Shown here one piece after another: positions 26,829 to 34,627 of a stretch of DNA of 64,000 bases. The translations under genes and the position numbers were made by a program. This DNA comes from Rhodobacter sp. (GTDB lineage Bacteria; Pseudomonadota; Alphaproteobacteria; Rhodobacterales; Rhodobacteraceae). The stretch is from contig JAIXRW010000054.1 in assembly GCA_027484985.1 (NCBI GenBank), positions 1-64,000 on the forward strand, written 5' to 3'. A model generated the notes under the pieces. The model saw only the letters and a program-made list of their open reading frames with translations. It was not told the DNA's origin and made no database searches. Within the stretch, counting starts at the first letter, position 1; each line of letters opens with the position of its first letter.

Positions 26829-27058
26829 TTCATCTTTGCAAAAATACTCCGGGGTCCGGGGCAGCGCCCCGGTCCTGCCCCATGCCCCCCCCGCTCCCCA
26901 AAGGCCAAGCCCCACGCACAGCCCCCCTCACCCTTGCCCGAAATACTCCGGGGTCCGGGGCAGCGCCCCGGTCCTGCCCCATGCCCCCCCGCTCCCCAAA
27001 GGCCAAGTCCCATACACAGCCCCCCTCACCCTTGCCCGAAATACTCCGGGGTCCGGGG
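26829..27058. repeat. mosaic repeat, copy 6: three tandem 98-99 base units
   Basis: The core AAATACTCCGGGGTCCGGGG begins at 26842, 26941 and 27039, giving periods of 99 and 98 bases. Each unit continues with CAGCGCCCCGGTCCTGCCC, and the two complete units then run through GCTCCCCAAAGGCCAAG to the next core. The units differ at only a few bases, so the amplification is recent. It lies between converging genes. Confidence 0.88.
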
Positions 27059-27155
27059 CAGCGCCCCGGTCCTGCCCGTGTGGCAGCGCCCCGGTCCTGC
27101 CCGTGTGGCAGCGCCCCGGTCCTGCCTGTATCGCAGCGCCCCGGTCCTGCCCGCC
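27059..27155. repeat. 25-base tandem repeat abutting tadA
   Basis: CAGCGCCCCGGTCCTGCC starts at 27059, 27084, 27109 and 27134, exactly 25 bases apart. The last partial unit runs into the tadA stop codon. It is nested in the end of the 98-base array. It has no unique spacers, so it is not CRISPR; slippage could easily change the copy number. Confidence 0.88.
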
Positions 27156-27601
27156 TAACGGCGCCCCGCGAAAAAGCCCTTCAACAGCGCCTCGGCCTCG
27201 GTCGCGCCGATACCGTCGTAAATCTCGGGCACATGGTGGCACTGGGCGTGCGAAAACACCCGTGCCCCCACGCTCACCCCGCCCGATTTCGGGTCTGCCG
27301 CCGCGTAATACAGCCGCCCGATCCGCGCGGCGGCAATCGCGCCCGCGCACATCGCACAGGGTTCCAGCGTGACATAAAGATCATGCCCGCCCAGCCGCTC
27401 GGTCCCTGCCGCAGCGCAGGCGGCGCGGATCGCCAGCATCTCGGCATGGGCGGTCGGATCGGCCAGCTCGCGCGTGCGGTTGCCCGCGCGCGCCACCACC
27501 ACGCCCGCCTGCACGACCACGGCCCCCACGGGAACCTCGCCCCGCGCGGCCGCCGCCCGCGCCTCGTCCAGCGCGATCTGCATGAAAGACCGGAACTCCA
27601 T
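27155..27601 (-). CDS. tadA: tRNA-specific adenosine deaminase
   Basis: A 148-residue zinc deaminase that converts adenosine 34 of tRNA-Arg(ACG) to inosine, an essential wobble modification. The zinc and catalytic motifs are PTAHAEMLAI (HAE) and LEPCAMCAGAI (PCxxC). The C-terminal VFSHAQCHHVPEIYDGI segment is typical of TadA. The start ATG (complement 27599-27601) is divergent from rluB with a 127-base gap. Its 3' end is flanked directly by the 25-base tandem array. Confidence 0.94.
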   Translation of the reverse strand: MEFRSFMQIALDEARAAAARGEVPVGAVVVQAGVVVARAGNRTRELADPTAHAEMLAIRAACAAAGTERLGGHDLYVTLEPCAMCAGAIAAARIGRLYYAAADPKSGGVSVGARVFSHAQCHHVPEIYDGIGATEAEALLKGFFAGRR

Positions 27602-29058: not shown

Positions 29059-29142
29059 ATGACAGGCGATACCTTTCGCAGCCTCTCCTACTTCCTGCTT
29101 CTGGCCCTCATCCTCTATGTCGGCGCGTCCGGGGGGCAATGA
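29059..29142 (+). CDS. 27-residue membrane peptide upstream of xpaC
   Basis: A very short open frame, ATG 29059 to TGA 29142, encoding one hydrophobic helix (LSYFLLLALILYVG) between a polar N-terminus MTGDTFRS and a Gly-rich end. The stop is one base before the xpaC start codon, the spacing expected for translational coupling, and CGGGGAACGG lies upstream. The hydrophobic run and spacing favour a real small membrane protein, but I cannot show conservation by reading. If real, it is the first gene of the TelA cluster. Confidence 0.5.
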   Translation: MTGDTFRSLSYFLLLALILYVGASGGQ

Positions 29143-29143
29143 C

Positions 29144-30040
29144 ATGGCACAGCGTTTCGGCGGCAAATACAGCCCCACCCCTGCCCCCACCCCCGATGCG
29201 GCAGGCACCCCGCCAGATACCCCGCCCGTCGCAAACCGCTTCGACGGCAAGCGCCCGCTGCCCGCACGGGGCCGGACCAACCTGTTCTTCGTGGCCTCCT
29301 TCGCCCTGCTGGTCCCCGCCGTCCTGCATGGCGGCCCCGATGTCCTGTTGCGCTCGGTCGGGGCCACCGCGCTCTGCCTCGCCGCCGTCTGGCTCACGCG
29401 TGAGGGGCTGGTGGCCGAAGACGCCTTCAACGCCCGCACCATCGCCCGCCGCCCGGCCATCCCGCGCAAGATATTTGCCGCCGTGCTGACCGGCGCCGCC
29501 CTCGGCCTTGGCGCGACCATCACCCAGCCCGGCCTTTACCCGCTTGCCTTCGCGCTGGCCGGTGCCGCCGCCCATCTGGCCGCCTTTGGCCTCGATCCCC
29601 TGCGATCCAAGGGCGCAACCGGCCTTGACGAATTCCAGACCGACCGCGTCGCCCGCGCCGTGGACGAAGGCGAACGCTTCCTGTCAGACATGCGCGATGC
29701 CATCCGCCGCGCCGGCGACCGCGCGCTCGAAGCGCGGGTTGATGCCTTCACCACCACCGCCCGCACACTTTTTCGCACGGTCGAGGGCGATCCCGGCGAT
29801 CTGACCGCCGCGCGCAAATTCCTCTCGGTCTATCTTTCCGGCGCCCGCGACGCGACGGTCAAGTTTGCCGATTTTTACGCCACCTCGCGCGATGCCACCG
29901 CGCGGGCCGATTATCTTGGCCTGCTCGACGATCTGGAAACCAATTTCGCCAGCCGGACCAAGGCCCTTCTGTCCAACAACCGCAGCGATCTCGATGTCGA
30001 AATCGGCGTCCTGCGCGAAAGACTGCAACGCGAGGGCTAG
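29144..30040 (+). CDS. XpaC-family protein
   Basis: A 298-residue protein of the '5-bromo-4-chloroindolyl phosphate hydrolysis' (XpaC) family. A Pro-rich cytosolic N-terminus (1-45) is followed by four hydrophobic spans (about 48-145). The helical C-terminal domain (about 160-298) includes DEGERFLSDMRDAIRRAGD and DYLGLLDDLETNFASRTKAL. XpaC proteins are almost always encoded beside TelA and are thought to act with it at the membrane. Despite the name there is no evidence of phosphatase activity in the sequence. It lies one base after the small peptide and 59 bases before telA. Confidence 0.85.
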   Translation: MAQRFGGKYSPTPAPTPDAAGTPPDTPPVANRFDGKRPLPARGRTNLFFVASFALLVPAVLHGGPDVLLRSVGATALCLAAVWLTREGLVAEDAFNARTIARRPAIPRKIFAAVLTGAALGLGATITQPGLYPLAFALAGAAAHLAAFGLDPLRSKGATGLDEFQTDRVARAVDEGERFLSDMRDAIRRAGDRALEARVDAFTTTARTLFRTVEGDPGDLTAARKFLSVYLSGARDATVKFADFYATSRDATARADYLGLLDDLETNFASRTKALLSNNRSDLDVEIGVLRERLQREG

Positions 30041-30099
30041 GCCCCGCATCCCGCCCCACCCCTCCGCGCCCGTTCTTCGCATCTGTAAAGGTTCCCGCC

Positions 30100-31296
30100 A
30101 TGCCCGAAACCATCCGCGACGCCGCCGCCACCGCCCTGACCGAAGTGGAAGCCGTGACCAAGGCCCTGCTGCCCGAACCCGTGGCCGAAGTGGTGCCCCT
30201 GTCCGCCGCCCCCGCCCCGCAGGCCGAAGAAATCCGCAAACGCATGGCCGAGGTTGACCTGTCCGATGCCCAGTCGATCTTGTCCTTCGGCTCGTCTGCA
30301 CAGGCCGAATTGCAGGTGATCAGCCAGGAAATGCTGTCGGGCGTCCGCAACAAGGATGTCGGCCCCGCAGGCGACAGCCTGCGCGAGATTGTCACCACCA
30401 TCCGCGGCTTTTCCGCCAGCGAACTCGACCTGGGCCGCGATCAAAGCTGGTGGGAAAAACTGGTGGGCCGCGCCAAGCCGGTGGCGAAATTCGTCGCGCA
30501 ATACGAACAGGTGCAGGGCCAGATCGACCGCATCACCGAAAACCTGCTGATGCACGAACATACCCTGCTCAAGGACATCAAGGCGCTTGATATCCTTTAT
30601 GCCAAGACGCTCGCCTTCTATGACGAACTGGCGCTCTACATCGCCGCAGGCCAAGCCAAGATAGCCGAGGCCGACCAGACCGCCATCCCCGCCAAAGAGG
30701 CCGCAGTGGCCGCCGCCCCCGAAGCCGATCAGGTGAAACTGGCACAGGAACTGCGCGACCTGCGCGCCGCCCGCGACGATCTCGACCGCCGCGTGCATGA
30801 CCTGCGCCTGACCCGTCAGGTGACGATGCAATCGCTGCCCTCGATCCGCCTCGTGCAGGAAAACGACAAAAGCCTTGTGGCCAAGATCAACTCGACACTG
30901 GTCAACACCGTGCCGCTGTGGGAAACCCAGCTCGCGCAGGCCGTCACCATCCAGCGCAGCAAGGATGCCGCCGAAGCGGTGCGCGATGCCAATGATCTGA
31001 CGAATGAATTGCTCAAGGCCAATGCCGAAAACCTGCAACAGGCCAACCGCGTCGTGCGCGAGGAAATGGAACGCGGCGTTTTCGATATCGAGGCCGTCAA
31101 GGCCGCCAACGCCACCCTCATCGCCACCATCGAGGACAGCCTTCGCATCGCCGACGAAGGCAAGACCCGCCGCGCCGCCGCCGAGACCGACTTGCAAAAG
31201 CTTGAAACAGACCTGCGCGACACGCTGGCATCCGCCCGCGCCAAACCTGTCGGCCCCGCCCCCGATCCTGCCGCGCCCAACCCCGCAGCCCCCTGA
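30100..31296 (+). CDS. telA: TelA/KlaA-family protein
   Basis: A 398-residue soluble, highly helical protein of the TelA ('toxic anion resistance') family. Features are LGRDQSWWEKLVGRAKPVAKFV (given here in part: WWEKLVGRAKPVAKFV), a long coiled-coil centre, LRLTRQVTMQSLPSIRLVQE (about 234-253) and NTVPLWETQLAQAV. The last 20 residues are a Pro/Ala tail. Plasmid KlaA contributes to tellurite resistance, but chromosomal homologues are better viewed as envelope-stress proteins. Neighbouring SPFH and zinc-ribbon genes support a membrane-associated complex. Confidence 0.88.
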   Translation: MPETIRDAAATALTEVEAVTKALLPEPVAEVVPLSAAPAPQAEEIRKRMAEVDLSDAQSILSFGSSAQAELQVISQEMLSGVRNKDVGPAGDSLREIVTTIRGFSASELDLGRDQSWWEKLVGRAKPVAKFVAQYEQVQGQIDRITENLLMHEHTLLKDIKALDILYAKTLAFYDELALYIAAGQAKIAEADQTAIPAKEAAVAAAPEADQVKLAQELRDLRAARDDLDRRVHDLRLTRQVTMQSLPSIRLVQENDKSLVAKINSTLVNTVPLWETQLAQAVTIQRSKDAAEAVRDANDLTNELLKANAENLQQANRVVREEMERGVFDIEAVKAANATLIATIEDSLRIADEGKTRRAAAETDLQKLETDLRDTLASARAKPVGPAPDPAAPNPAAP

Positions 31297-31299
31297 CGC

Positions 31300-32280
31300 T
31301 TGCCAAGGAAAACCGTCCTGCACACGCTTTCGCCCCGCTTCCGCTCTGTCCTGACGGGCCTGTGCCTGTCGGCGCTCGCCGCCTGTGGCCCCATGCCACC
31401 GGCCCCGCCACAGGCGGGCAGCGCCGTGCCGGACCAAAGCCCCGCCACCGCCCCCGCCGTAGCGCCGACGGAAACCGAAGCCAGCCTTGCCGCGCGCCAG
31501 CATTACGCCCGCGTGCAGACGATGCTGCTGGCGCAGGGGCTGCTCCGCACCGATGGCGGCGGCCCCGACACCCCCTTTACCGACCGGATGCTGGCCGAAA
31601 ACTTCATCCGCGTGGCGCTTTACGACGAATACACCCGCACCTCGGGCGGCCCCGTCCAGCGCACCACCGCCAGCCGCATCCGCAAATGGGATGTGCCCGT
31701 CCGCCTCGGGCTGCGCTTCGGCGTCTCGGTCCCGCCCGACCGCCGCGCCGCCGATACCGCGCGCATCGCCTCGTTCCTTGCGCGGCTCTCGCGGCTGACC
31801 GGCCATGCCATCGGCCTGTCCGACACCAATCCCAACTTCCTTGTCTATATCGTGTCCGAAGACGAACGTCAGGCGCTCGGCCCGCAGATCCGCGCCAGCC
31901 TGCCCGGTCTTTCGCCGTCCGAAGTGGGCGCGATCACCCAGATGGACCGCTCCACCTATTGCCTTGTCTATGCCATGTCCGATGGCGCCAGCTCCAGCTA
32001 TACCCGCGCCTTCGCCGTGATCCGCGCCGAACATCCCGATCTTCTGCGCCTGTCCTGCATGCATGAAGAAATCGCCCAGGGTCTTGGCCTTGCCAATGAC
32101 AGCCCCTCGGCCCGCCCCTCGATCTTCAACGATGACGAGGAATTTGCCCTGCTCACCCGGCAGGACGAACTGATGCTGAAAATCCTTTACAACCCCGCCC
32201 TCACCCCCGGCATGACCGAAGATCAGGCCCGCCCCATCATCGCCACCCTCGCCGCGCGCCTGATCGGCGGCGAAAGCTGA
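31300..32280 (+). CDS. DUF2927 lipoprotein
   Basis: A 326-residue predicted lipoprotein. The N-terminal signal ends in LSALAAC, then a Pro/Ala linker leads to a DUF2927 domain (about 80-310). This domain includes NFIRVALYDEYTRTSGGPVQ, RKWDVPVRLGLRFGV and SCMHEEIAQGLGLANDSP; the HEE-x-QGLGL stretch resembles a metallopeptidase-like helix with HExxQ. DUF2927 has no established function. TTG 31300, three bases after the telA stop, is the best start because it precedes a full signal peptide. It is part of the TelA cluster by spacing. Confidence 0.76.
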   Translation: MPRKTVLHTLSPRFRSVLTGLCLSALAACGPMPPAPPQAGSAVPDQSPATAPAVAPTETEASLAARQHYARVQTMLLAQGLLRTDGGGPDTPFTDRMLAENFIRVALYDEYTRTSGGPVQRTTASRIRKWDVPVRLGLRFGVSVPPDRRAADTARIASFLARLSRLTGHAIGLSDTNPNFLVYIVSEDERQALGPQIRASLPGLSPSEVGAITQMDRSTYCLVYAMSDGASSSYTRAFAVIRAEHPDLLRLSCMHEEIAQGLGLANDSPSARPSIFNDDEEFALLTRQDELMLKILYNPALTPGMTEDQARPIIATLAARLIGGES

Positions 32281-32312
32281 CCCCTCGGCAACGGCCCCGC
32301 ATTGGCTCCGCA

Positions 32313-32340
32313 GGGGCCTGCAAGAATTTTCGCAGGCCCC
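32313..32340 (+). terminator. hairpin between the DUF2927 and SPFH genes
   Basis: GGGGCCTGC-AAGAATTTTC-GCAGGCCCC is a 9-bp perfect stem with a 10-base AT-rich loop, 33 bases after the DUF2927 stop. It lacks a U tract. It may be a terminator splitting the cluster into two units, or an RNA-processing signal. Confidence 0.5.
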
Positions 32341-32419
32341 CCGCTGCGATATGGTGTTTTGCGGCCATCCTCCTGTATGCTTCCGGCCGGGCGAACACTC
32401 GAAAGAACGGGGCGGTTAT

Positions 32420-33541
32420 ATGGTTTTCGGCTTCCTGCGCGGCGAATTCATCGATGTCATCGACTGGACCGATGACACCCGCGACACCATGGTCTGGCGC
32501 TTCGAACGTCAGGGCAACGCAATCAAATACGGCGCCAAGCTGACCGTCCGCGAAGGCCAAGCCGCCGTTTTCATCCACGAAGGCCAGCTTGCCGATACTT
32601 TCGGCCCCGGCCTCTACCAGCTTGAAACCAACAACCTGCCGATCCTGACCACGCTGCAACACTGGGATCACGGCTTCAGCTCGCCCTTCAAATCCGAGAT
32701 TTACTTCATCTCGACCACCCGCTTCAACGACCAGAAATGGGGCACCAAGAACCCCATCATGTGCCGCGACCCCGAATTTGGCCCCGTGCGCCTGCGCGCC
32801 TTCGGCACCTATTCGATGCGCGTTTCCGATCCGGCGCTGTTCCTCAAGGAAATCGTCGGCACCGATGGCGAATTCACCGCCGATGAGGTGTCGGACCAGA
32901 TCCGCAACGTCATCGCCCAGCAGTTCAGCCAGATCATCGCCAAGGCGGGCATCCCCGTGCTCGATATGGCGGGCAATACCGGCGACCTTGGCAAGCTGGT
33001 CGCCACCGCGATCAACCCCACCATCGCGGGCTATGGCCTGACCCTGCCCGAATTCTACATCGAGAACATCTCGCTTCCCGAAGAGGTGGAAAAGGCGCTC
33101 GACAAACGCACCTCGGTCGGCATCGCAGGCGACTTGAACAAATACATGCAATTCTCGGCGGCCGAGGCGATGGGCAAGGGCGGTTCGGGCGGCGATGCGA
33201 TGACCGCAGGCATCGGGGCTGCCATGGGCATGCAGATGGCCCAGAACATGGCCCAAAGCATGAACCCGAATACCGGCCCCTGGGGGGCTGCCCCGCAATC
33301 GGCGGGCGCACCGCCCCCGCCCCCCCCGCCCCCCGCCGCCCGCGCATGGCATATCGCCGCCAACGGCGCCACCACCGGCCCCTTTGCCGAAGCCGACCTT
33401 GCCGCCATGGTGACGGCAGGCACCCTGACACGCGCCAGCACCGTCTGGTCCGAGGGGATGGAGGGCTGGAAACCCGCCGCCGAAACCGACCTCGCGCGTC
33501 TGTTCCGCACCACCCCGCCCCCGCCCCCGCCCGGAGCGTAA
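32420..33541 (+). CDS. SPFH-domain protein with C-terminal GYF domain (YdjI-like)
   Basis: A 373-residue protein. An SPFH/virion-core-like region (about 20-255) has REGQAAVFIHEGQLADTFG, FGTYSMRVSDPALFLKEIVG and ISLPEEVEKALDKRTSVGI. A Met/Gly/Pro-rich hinge with a Pro8 run follows. A GYF_2-type domain (about 308-360, AWHIAANGATTGPFAEADLA) ends in a Pro tail. It matches Bacillus YdjI, a soluble SPFH protein recruited to membranes during stress. The next gene starts three bases later and is the zinc-ribbon partner. ATG 32420 is used because homologues begin at FLRGEFIDVIDW. Confidence 0.83.
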   Translation: MVFGFLRGEFIDVIDWTDDTRDTMVWRFERQGNAIKYGAKLTVREGQAAVFIHEGQLADTFGPGLYQLETNNLPILTTLQHWDHGFSSPFKSEIYFISTTRFNDQKWGTKNPIMCRDPEFGPVRLRAFGTYSMRVSDPALFLKEIVGTDGEFTADEVSDQIRNVIAQQFSQIIAKAGIPVLDMAGNTGDLGKLVATAINPTIAGYGLTLPEFYIENISLPEEVEKALDKRTSVGIAGDLNKYMQFSAAEAMGKGGSGGDAMTAGIGAAMGMQMAQNMAQSMNPNTGPWGAAPQSAGAPPPPPPPPAARAWHIAANGATTGPFAEADLAAMVTAGTLTRASTVWSEGMEGWKPAAETDLARLFRTTPPPPPPGA

Positions 33542-33544
33542 ACC

Positions 33545-34627
33545 ATGGCCCGTCAGACCTGGCCCTGCGCCGAATGCGGGGCCGACCTGCGTTTCGTGCC
33601 GGGTGCGACCGAACTGAAATGCGCCCATTGCGGCCATGTCCAGCCCATCCCCGACCAGCCCGCCCGCCGCAGCCGCGCCTTGGGCGAAATCGATCTGGCC
33701 CGTGGCCTTGCCGATGACCTGACGCCTGCGCAAACCGTCACGGTGCAATCGACCGCCTGCCCGAATTGCGGCGCGCTGGTCGAATTCAAGGGTGCCGAAC
33801 ACGCCACCGAATGCCCCTTCTGCGCCACGCCGGTCGTCACCGAAACCGACGAGACGCGCAAGATCAAGCCGCAGGCCGTGCTGCCCTTCGTCCTGTCCGA
33901 AGGTCAGGCGCGGCAGGCGATGACCGACTGGCTGGGCCGCCTGTGGTTCGCCCCGAACGGGTTGCAGGAATATGCCCGCAAGGGCCGCGCGCTGGCGGGT
34001 CTTTACGTGCCCTACTGGACCTTCGACGCCGCCACCCGCTCGCGCTATAGCGGGGCGCGGGGCGATTACTACTACACCACCGAAACCTATACCGAAAACG
34101 GCCAGACCCGCACCCGTCAGGTGCGCCACACCCGCTGGCGCGCCGCCTCGGGCCGCGTGGCCCGCGATTTCGACGATGTGCTGGTGCTGGCCAGCCAATC
34201 CCTGCCGCGCAGCTATACCGACGCCCTCGCCCCGTGGGACCTGTCGGCGCTGCAACCCTATACGCCCGATTACCTCGCCGGTTTCACCGCCGAAGGCTAT
34301 ACCGTCCCCCTCGCCGATGGCCACGCCATCGGACGCGAGGTGATGGAAGGCGTGATCCGTCAGGATGTCCGCGTCGATATCGGCGGCGACGAACAGCGCA
34401 TCGACGATGTCGATACCGACTGGTCGGACGAAACCTTCAAACACATCCTGCTGCCCGTCTGGATGGCCGCCTACAAATACGGCGGCAAAAGTTACCGCTT
34501 CGTGGTGAACGGCCAGACCGGCAAGGTGCAGGGCGAACGCCCCTACAGCAAGTGGAAGATCTTCTTCGCCGTGCTGCTGGCACTGGCCATCGCAGGCGCG
34601 GCCTTCGCCGTGCTGCAAAACCGCTGA
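33545..34627 (+). CDS. double zinc-ribbon membrane protein (YdjG-like)
   Basis: A 360-residue protein. Two zinc ribbons open it: CAECG/CAHCG (about residues 7-27) and CPNCG/CPFC (about 75-98). A long soluble domain (about 105-330) follows, with YVPYWTFDAATRSRYSGARG and LLPVWMAAYKYGGKSYRFVV. One C-terminal membrane span (IFFAVLLALAIAGAAFAVL, about 338-356) anchors it. Databases often call this type 'primosomal protein N-prime', which the sequence does not support. The pairing with an SPFH protein recalls Bacillus YdjG-YdjI, where the zinc-ribbon protein is the membrane anchor. Confidence 0.82.
   Translation: MARQTWPCAECGADLRFVPGATELKCAHCGHVQPIPDQPARRSRALGEIDLARGLADDLTPAQTVTVQSTACPNCGALVEFKGAEHATECPFCATPVVTETDETRKIKPQAVLPFVLSEGQARQAMTDWLGRLWFAPNGLQEYARKGRALAGLYVPYWTFDAATRSRYSGARGDYYYTTETYTENGQTRTRQVRHTRWRAASGRVARDFDDVLVLASQSLPRSYTDALAPWDLSALQPYTPDYLAGFTAEGYTVPLADGHAIGREVMEGVIRQDVRVDIGGDEQRIDDVDTDWSDETFKHILLPVWMAAYKYGGKSYRFVVNGQTGKVQGERPYSKWKIFFAVLLALAIAGAAFAVLQNR

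Follow-up and report, generated by a model that had tools for sequence, protein, structure and literature searches.

A 64,000-nucleotide stretch of Rhodobacter sp. DNA (GCA_027484985.1, contig JAIXRW010000054.1, positions 1 to 64,000; hereafter, the window) carries six adjoining genes on its plus strand at 29059–34627. They encode a membrane microprotein, XpaC, TelA, a DUF2927 lipoprotein, an SPFH protein, and a double zinc-ribbon protein. That the locus is a genuine conserved gene-level unit, joining two known stress families and a microprotein, is well supported. Its core appears to consist of the microprotein, XpaC, TelA, the SPFH protein with its GYF domain, and the tail-anchored double zinc-ribbon protein, with the DUF2927 gene probably inserted in Rhodobacteraceae. 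We regard as about evenly balanced the proposal that these five genes form an inner-membrane stress operon, in which the SPFH and zinc-ribbon proteins make up a scaffold and TelA takes the slot of PspA. We infer, rather than observe, a PspA-like role, physical contacts among the products, and any reach as far as the outer membrane.

All six open reading frames (ORFs) proposed in a sequence-only reading of the window were found; Pfam confirmed XpaC, TelA, DUF2927, and the SPFH protein with its GYF domain. The microprotein (29059–29142; MTGDTF...GGQ), 27 amino acids (aa) long with a single span, was identified from sequence, small-ORF scans, and the ratio of nonsynonymous to synonymous substitution rates (dN/dS). 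Its stop codon ends 1 base before the start of xpaC (29144–30040; PF10112, E=9.7e-23), whose product has hydrophobic spans in its N-terminal half and a conserved C-terminal domain. TelA (30100–31296; PF05816, E=1.8e-103) is predicted to form long helices and has no membrane span. The DUF2927 gene (31300–32280; PF11150, E=1.3e-63) has a TTG start and encodes the lipobox LAAC. The SPFH protein (32420–33541, with an alternative ATG at 32351) combines a Band_7_1 domain (PF13421, E=1.5e-101), a GYF_2 domain (PF14237, E=2.2e-16), and a proline-rich C-terminal tail. The last gene (33545–34627), characterized by alignment and hydrophobicity, encodes the double zinc-ribbon protein. As had been claimed, it has two four-cysteine ribbons and one strong C-terminal hydrophobic span (residues 339–357), a putative tail anchor; all eight cysteines are invariant in 37 aligned sequences, as is an IGGDxQ motif in the middle domain. 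Pfam gave sub-threshold zinc-ribbon matches only for this protein, and scans with PADLOC and NCBIfam returned weak matches only, all of them on it.

Conservation in Rhodobacteraceae

Our family sample consisted of 100 Rhodobacteraceae genomes, each from a different genus. XpaC was present in 90 (89 over the cut-off), TelA in 89, Band_7_1 in 89 (88 near full length), the zinc-ribbon protein in 88, and DUF2927 in 95, the majority of which have additional copies. XpaC, TelA, SPFH, and zinc ribbon were found together in 85 genomes and none of the four in nine, an all-or-none pattern in 94 of 100; the figure is 93 if the partial Band_7_1 match over the cut-off in G059, one of the nine, is counted as present rather than absent. 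The six mixed genomes are assemblies of 200–480 contigs. TelA and XpaC agreed in 100/100 genomes (both 89, neither 11, never one alone). TelA and SPFH occurred together in 88, TelA alone in one, SPFH alone in none, and neither in 11.

The genes also lie side by side. XpaC and TelA were same-strand neighbors within 5 kilobases (kb) in 88/89 genomes, the exception being G023, as were TelA and SPFH in 81/88 and SPFH and zinc ribbon in 82/85. Four genomes (G004, G018, G062, and G083) have the two halves apart inside contigs, with each pair together and both kept; in G064, G082, and G085 the halves are also separated, possibly by an assembly break. We excluded TelA rows below the cut-off (G088, G017), partial or weak SPFH rows (the second piece in G028, and G059, G008, G012, G064, G093, and G080), second XpaC copies (G017, G020, G025, G063, G082, G083, G086) and a sub-threshold one (G090), zinc-ribbon paralogues of 34–36% identity (G002, G011, G015, G020), and zinc-ribbon fragments (G008, G022, G023, G098). 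For G083, the XpaC copy beside TelA was kept although the other copy scores slightly higher. As the genomes are relatives, Fisher values are nominal and do not count as independent evidence.

PspA (PF04012) matched in 24 of the 100 genomes, 21 of them over the cut-off, and was not associated with TelA (both 19, TelA only 70, PspA only 2, neither 9). The window's own genome (90.9% complete, 72 contigs) had no PF04012 match, and a PspA hidden Markov model from seven family sequences, which could miss a diverged PspA, had no match in the module loci scanned. The cluster is thus without PspA, as the sequence-only reading had held, and we rejected a PspA encoded elsewhere as a hidden partner, given the lack of association and the absence from the window's own genome. 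The operon suggests how the Rhodobacteraceae without PspA (no match in 76 of the 100) may handle inner-membrane damage.

TelA and XpaC are grouped with Ter-type stress genes, a link that the sequence-only reading had adopted. TerD (PF02342) was found in 0/100 Rhodobacteraceae genomes by a search whose control matched B. subtilis and Deinobacterium, and on the absence of this one Ter protein searched for we rejected membership in the Ter system. The missing TerD also argues against the operon being a tellurite or oxyanion resistance determinant, in which TelA-XpaC would act on the oxyanion or the damage it does and the SPFH and zinc-ribbon proteins would be auxiliary. Such a role would accord with the Pfam name of the TelA family, Toxic anion resistance protein, and with the listing of Rhodobacter sphaeroides telA among chromosomal tellurite-resistance elements (PMC6955997). 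However, the presence of all four core proteins in 85 of the 100 genera suits a core function better than a resistance gained by acquisition, and the studies of Gram-positive bacteria cited below tie the same families to envelope stress. We consider a dedicated resistance function doubtful; tellurite and envelope roles could both hold if tellurite damages membranes.

Distribution beyond the family

Among 210 genomes of the class Alphaproteobacteria, TelA was present in 16 and Band_7_1 in nine, all nine with TelA and seven with the two adjacent. Among 299 genomes of the phylum Pseudomonadota, TelA was found in 43 and Band_7_1 in 35. We also searched named genomes with an SPFH alignment, taking the best 80 of at least 586 relatives, a sample that leans to this SPFH type; group labels were assigned from record titles, and TelA counts required at least 2.6 kb of upstream sequence. 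TelA lies 5′ of SPFH in 52/69 loci with enough flank, and the zinc-ribbon gene 3′ in 63/72. The former arrangement was found in 29/30 Rhodobacteraceae, 13/15 gammaproteobacteria, 5/5 Campylobacterota, 2/3 other alphaproteobacteria, 2/3 loosely named proteobacteria, and 1/1 unnamed bacterium. The same compact XpaC-TelA-SPFH-zinc ribbon order is found again in further alphaproteobacteria, in gammaproteobacteria, and in Campylobacterota; where DUF2927 is missing (27 loci), the median TelA-to-SPFH gap is 3 base pairs (bp). Conserved adjacency beyond close relatives, which the sequence-only reading had set as a test, is therefore present in all three groups.

Among the four gene trees, distances show correlations of 0.81–0.92 (51 loci; permuted maximum 0.24), as either joint transfer or shared descent could produce. 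Campylobacterota branch inside the gammaproteobacterial sequences of the TelA tree (support values not considered). This nesting suggests that the operon may have been transferred between gammaproteobacteria and Campylobacterota.

TelA has other neighborhoods as well. In one locus (L104), the gene after XpaC-TelA encodes a diverged SPFH-like protein that has a GYF domain. In three other members of the class (L036 4717–8289, L042 4335–8370, and L043 5050–8629), a lipoprotein-like protein is encoded between XpaC and TelA; it is ~525 aa long in L036 and L042 and longer as called in L043. In L042, the only one scanned with Pfam, this protein contains solute-binding and vWA domains. In a phylum member outside the class (L110 3732–10997), TelA has solute-binding and OmpA-domain proteins as neighbors. 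The Sinorhizobium jumbo phage Phosso (L204, 885–5065) has four consecutive genes whose products Pfam assigns as YqiJ-like, flotillin, XpaC, and TelA; it is the best of the 52 phage records with TelA matches and the only one inspected. The window XpaC had no match in phages, that of Phosso having been found by Pfam. The window SPFH matched six phage records, Phosso not among them, and 22 plasmid records, including Paracoccus, Vibrio, and Burkholderia, of which one Paracoccus region was inspected.

These settings bear on the alternative that XpaC-TelA and SPFH-zinc ribbon are two independent functions that share a transcription unit without forming a joint complex. SPFH-zinc ribbon pairs without TelA in several phyla, XpaC-TelA around the vWA/solute-binding protein in L036, L042, and L043, and the unlinked halves of some Rhodobacteraceae genomes would all fit such an arrangement. 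It accounts less well for the joint absence of the halves, their joint retention even when unlinked, the congruent gene trees, and the phage XpaC-TelA beside a different SPFH subfamily. We think it unlikely.

The 27-aa peptide, which the sequence-only reading had mentioned in passing, turned out, on small-ORF scans and dN/dS, to be a conserved component. A hydrophobic ATG-started ORF of 20–45 codons adjoins the start of 49/77 XpaC genes; the same scan gave 0/91 for TelA, 2/104 for SPFH, and 3/95 for zinc-ribbon genes and 0/77 for antisense stretches, controls that are imperfectly matched in that coding sequence mostly precedes the other genes. A wider scan, which allowed other start codons and used estimated XpaC starts, found the microprotein 5′ of XpaC in 100/112 loci (87 distinct), with a few wrong picks (e.g., L003) and some loci that represent the same genome twice. 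The family is under purifying selection, with a pooled ratio of nonsynonymous to synonymous differences (pN/pS) of 0.32 (156 pairs, amino-acid identity at least 60%) and a median dN/dS of 0.19 (127 computable pairs). Some gammaproteobacterial members contain a cysteine motif (VSCQ and alike) and several from Campylobacterota a WYPL motif. Annotation length cut-offs often miss proteins of this size, and the module thus adds a microprotein of a kind that is easily overlooked. The inspected Paracoccus plasmid region has no annotated peptide, but as the gene 5′ of TelA there has no XpaC match, the region says nothing about annotation of the microprotein.

The DUF2927 gene begins 3 bp after telA in the window, also the median of 31 loci. 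Among loci with enough flank, it is present at 28/30 in Rhodobacteraceae, one in other alphaproteobacteria, 0/15 in gammaproteobacteria, and 0/5 in Campylobacterota. Joined loci of other families in the class lack it (L031, L032, L033, L035), and at one TelA locus without SPFH from another family of the class (L047), a DUF2927 gene lies ~4.4 kb away on the opposite strand. As the lipoprotein is usually missing from joined operons outside Rhodobacteraceae, the core does not need it, and DUF2927 as a core part was not supported. The sequence-only reading had pictured a single machine spanning the envelope, anchored by the zinc-ribbon protein and reaching the outer membrane via the lipoprotein. 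The position of DUF2927 between TelA and SPFH, directly after TelA, its lipobox, and the periplasmic-type parts at other TelA loci (solute-binding/vWA in some, solute-binding and OmpA-domain in another) lend this picture some appeal. The absence of DUF2927 from all 15 gammaproteobacterial and all five Campylobacterota loci with enough flank argues in the other direction, as does the fact that none of the six proteins resembles a periplasm-crossing link, and we consider such a machine very improbable.

The structure model of the lipoprotein (mean predicted local distance difference test score, pLDDT, 84.3) resembles metzincins weakly but repeatedly in Foldseek: 37 of the 50 matches listed are metzincins (fragilysin, snapalysin, and matrix metalloproteinases), none at E<=0.001. 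The metzincin zinc motif HExxHxxGxxH/D is absent, and a conserved HEExxQxxGxxND stands in its stead in 27 aligned sequences. This motif fits metzincin spacing if E256, its first conserved glutamate, replaces the first zinc histidine, with all three ligands changed. The protein may have an inactive or altered protease fold. It could serve as an optional periplasmic sensor.

Proposed mechanism and the parts of the operon

We propose that the five core products would work together at the inner membrane, their localization being predicted from hydrophobic spans and every contact being conjectural. The zinc-ribbon protein, with its ribbons in the cytoplasm, would anchor an SPFH oligomer to the inner membrane on its cytoplasmic side, as YdjG and YdjH do for YdjI in Bacillus subtilis. 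XpaC, through the spans in its N-terminal half and perhaps with the microprotein, would tether the helical TelA to that membrane as well. Brought to the scaffold, TelA would be the effector, occupying the slot that PspA has in pspA-ydjGHI. Where TelA and SPFH meet at the membrane, the output might be stabilization under envelope stress, such as that from antimicrobial peptides, oxyanions, or ion leakage. A bolder version, which we hold tentatively and lean against, makes XpaC-TelA a second, PspA-independent client of SPFH scaffolds in a repair machine parallel to Psp. Here, one operon would have moved among Alphaproteobacteria, Gammaproteobacteria, and Campylobacterota, XpaC-TelA would be joined to flotillin in the jumbo phage, and an undescribed family of ~25–35-residue microproteins would supply an obligate subunit or regulator.

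Several observations weigh against the five-gene stress operon. Its function, transcription, and contacts are inferred from sequence. Of the 299 phylum genomes, 19 have both TelA and SPFH, 24 TelA only, and 16 SPFH only, and in the five shared genomes that lie outside the family the two are not adjacent (G371 is fragmented); given this patchiness, the joined form is sporadic outside Rhodobacteraceae. TelA was 5′ of SPFH in 0/12 loci from Desulfobacterota, Bacteroidota (with Rubricoccaceae), Planctomycetota, Gemmatimonadota, and Verrucomicrobiota. At 13 of the 16 TelA loci without this SPFH, 19 TelA neighbors included no SPFH or flotillin, and the phage XpaC-TelA with flotillin is a single inspected case of 52. 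As the genomes are related, common descent accounts for part of the co-occurrence and of the agreement between trees. Confidence in the TelA structure model, with its long helices at 127–205, 208–324, and 330–380, is moderate (pLDDT 73.8, predicted template modeling score 0.56), and no PDB entry reached E<=0.001 in Foldseek. Long helical proteins make up most of the 50 matches listed out of 866, with no PspA or ESCRT-III entry among them; the best bacterial ones listed are helical bundles of the AhlC/ClyA pore-former type. Foldseek thus lent no support to TelA as a PspA homologue, a reading we set aside; this model-based result neither proves nor excludes a PspA-like role. A sequence search of solved structures returned weak matches only for TelA and the zinc-ribbon protein.

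GYF domains bind proline-rich peptides, and the SPFH protein could use its GYF domain and its proline-rich end to hold on to neighboring subunits. Proline-rich tails (PPPxP-type, loose pattern) are equally common in SPFH proteins linked to TelA (56/62) and unlinked (22/23) and are therefore not specific to linkage. Two patterns for the GYF domain disagree (74/86 versus 52/62 SPFH proteins), and tails missed by the first look GYF-like by eye; neither figure is taken as the frequency of the domain. The idea that GYF binds proline-rich TelA tails was dropped, since most of the TelA C-termini inspected from outside the window lack a proline-rich stretch.

The sequence-only reading had also suggested that a hairpin may divide the unit. 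A GC-rich 9-bp hairpin does exist on the plus strand at 32313–32340, in the gap between DUF2927 and SPFH, and is probably not functional. The 91-nucleotide stretch around it folds no better than shuffled sequences (z -0.43), a terminator scan found only a different 6-bp stem nearby (32330–32349), and the region contains two terminator-like sites compared to 6.7 in shuffles. Perfect 9-bp stems with loops of 3–15 give 25 matches at ~17 places in the window, exceeding ten first-order Markov simulations (3–21); hairpins of this type are thus common there. With the folding, terminator, and stem counts in hand, we rejected an intrinsic terminator splitting the unit. The DUF2927-SPFH gap itself varies between loci.

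We also made several observations on the neighbors and variants of these genes. Salipiger loci contain tandem XpaC copies, the upstream one diverged (L142 5836–7767, L151 5871–7780). In several Rhodobacteraceae (L124, L131, L140, L144, L155, L160, L166, L169, L181), the SPFH and zinc-ribbon genes are separated by a gene for a related membrane protein that has conserved histidines and is b561-like by impression; L140 has two copies, and Pfam found no match in the proteins from L131 and L140. In L118, L125, L178, and L183, three Desulfobacterota-named loci and one proteobacterial metagenome-assembled genome, SPFH is paired with a different zinc-ribbon protein 3′, which is PF13453 in L118, the sole one scanned; a zinc-ribbon partner is therefore kept even when its family changes. 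A Bacteroidales genome has two tandem zinc-ribbon genes after SPFH (L177 11102–13334). The SPFH proteins of L095, L096, and L097 end in a short helix-turn-helix-like tail instead of GYF, as annotated for a plasmid homologue, and SHOCT-like tails occur elsewhere (L039). Outside the class, a DUF350-type membrane protein is encoded 5′ of SPFH in L094 and L102 (Pfam on L094 only). In the window, tandem GC-rich repeats lie 5′ of the module at 26842–27168, with a 98-bp unit repeated 2.4 times followed by 25/50-bp units.

Comparison with known systems

Anantharaman and colleagues' 2012 work on Ter systems may discuss parts of the joined operon. Among the literature matches listed, we found no description of an operon joining XpaC, TelA, SPFH, and zinc ribbon. 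Both halves are known separately. Lists of the sigma-W regulon give xpaC-yaaN (core) and pspA-ydjGHI (secondary) as operons (PMC3498285). Work on Enterococcus, Lactococcus, and Listeria considers XpaC/TelA homologues in connection with antimicrobials that act on the envelope (PMC10269926, PMC7864038, PMC12791056), and the Gram-positive contexts described for these families include sigma-W, LiaR, and bacteriocin and nisin tolerance. TelA and XpaC thus recur in such tolerance studies, and an SPFH/zinc-ribbon scaffold would offer a place of action and a testable partner.

The closest parallel is pspA-ydjGHI of B. subtilis, where YdjG and YdjH are required for membrane localization of the SPFH protein YdjI and YdjI is required for PspA foci (PMC8581546). 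In that envelope-stress operon, as in the window, an SPFH (band-7) gene sits next to one for a membrane-spanning protein with two zinc ribbons. The match of the last two genes to YdjI and YdjG, drawn in the sequence-only reading, stands at the level of architecture, a PF13421 SPFH and an eight-cysteine, putatively tail-anchored zinc ribbon that is a candidate YdjG counterpart. The PF13421 model also has a match in B. subtilis, which may be YdjI. The window module differs in having XpaC-TelA and a microprotein in place of PspA and, among its six proteins, the only ones searched, no TPM-type YdjH by Pfam. The Bacillus band-7 protein has a C-terminal zinc ribbon according to a 2024 Psp survey (PMC11237479), whereas the window SPFH has a GYF domain. 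Membership in Psp/Ydj therefore fails on PspA and, within the operon, on YdjH, although the module may nonetheless function as the SPFH arm of Psp does.

The xpaC-yaaN operon of Bacillota has the two genes in the same order as the PF10112 and PF05816 genes of the window; the TelA model matches in B. subtilis and the PF10112 model does not. In Bacillus, the pair is an operon separate from the SPFH half, whereas in the window the two are joined with the microprotein ahead. The Ter system differs in its TerD. The YqiJ/YuaF-flotillin operons share the principle of an SPFH scaffold with a membrane partner but use another SPFH subfamily (Flot domain) and another partner. The 2024 survey describes PspA beside band-7/flotillin, YqiJ/YuaF, and the ZnR/TPM proteins of the ydj operon, so that in other bacteria these flotillin operons appear with PspA (PMC11237479); in Phosso, one lies directly beside XpaC-TelA. 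Against this Psp and sigma-W background, the Rhodobacter operon stands out for having XpaC-TelA where PspA would be, and the jumbo phage for having XpaC-TelA beside flotillin.

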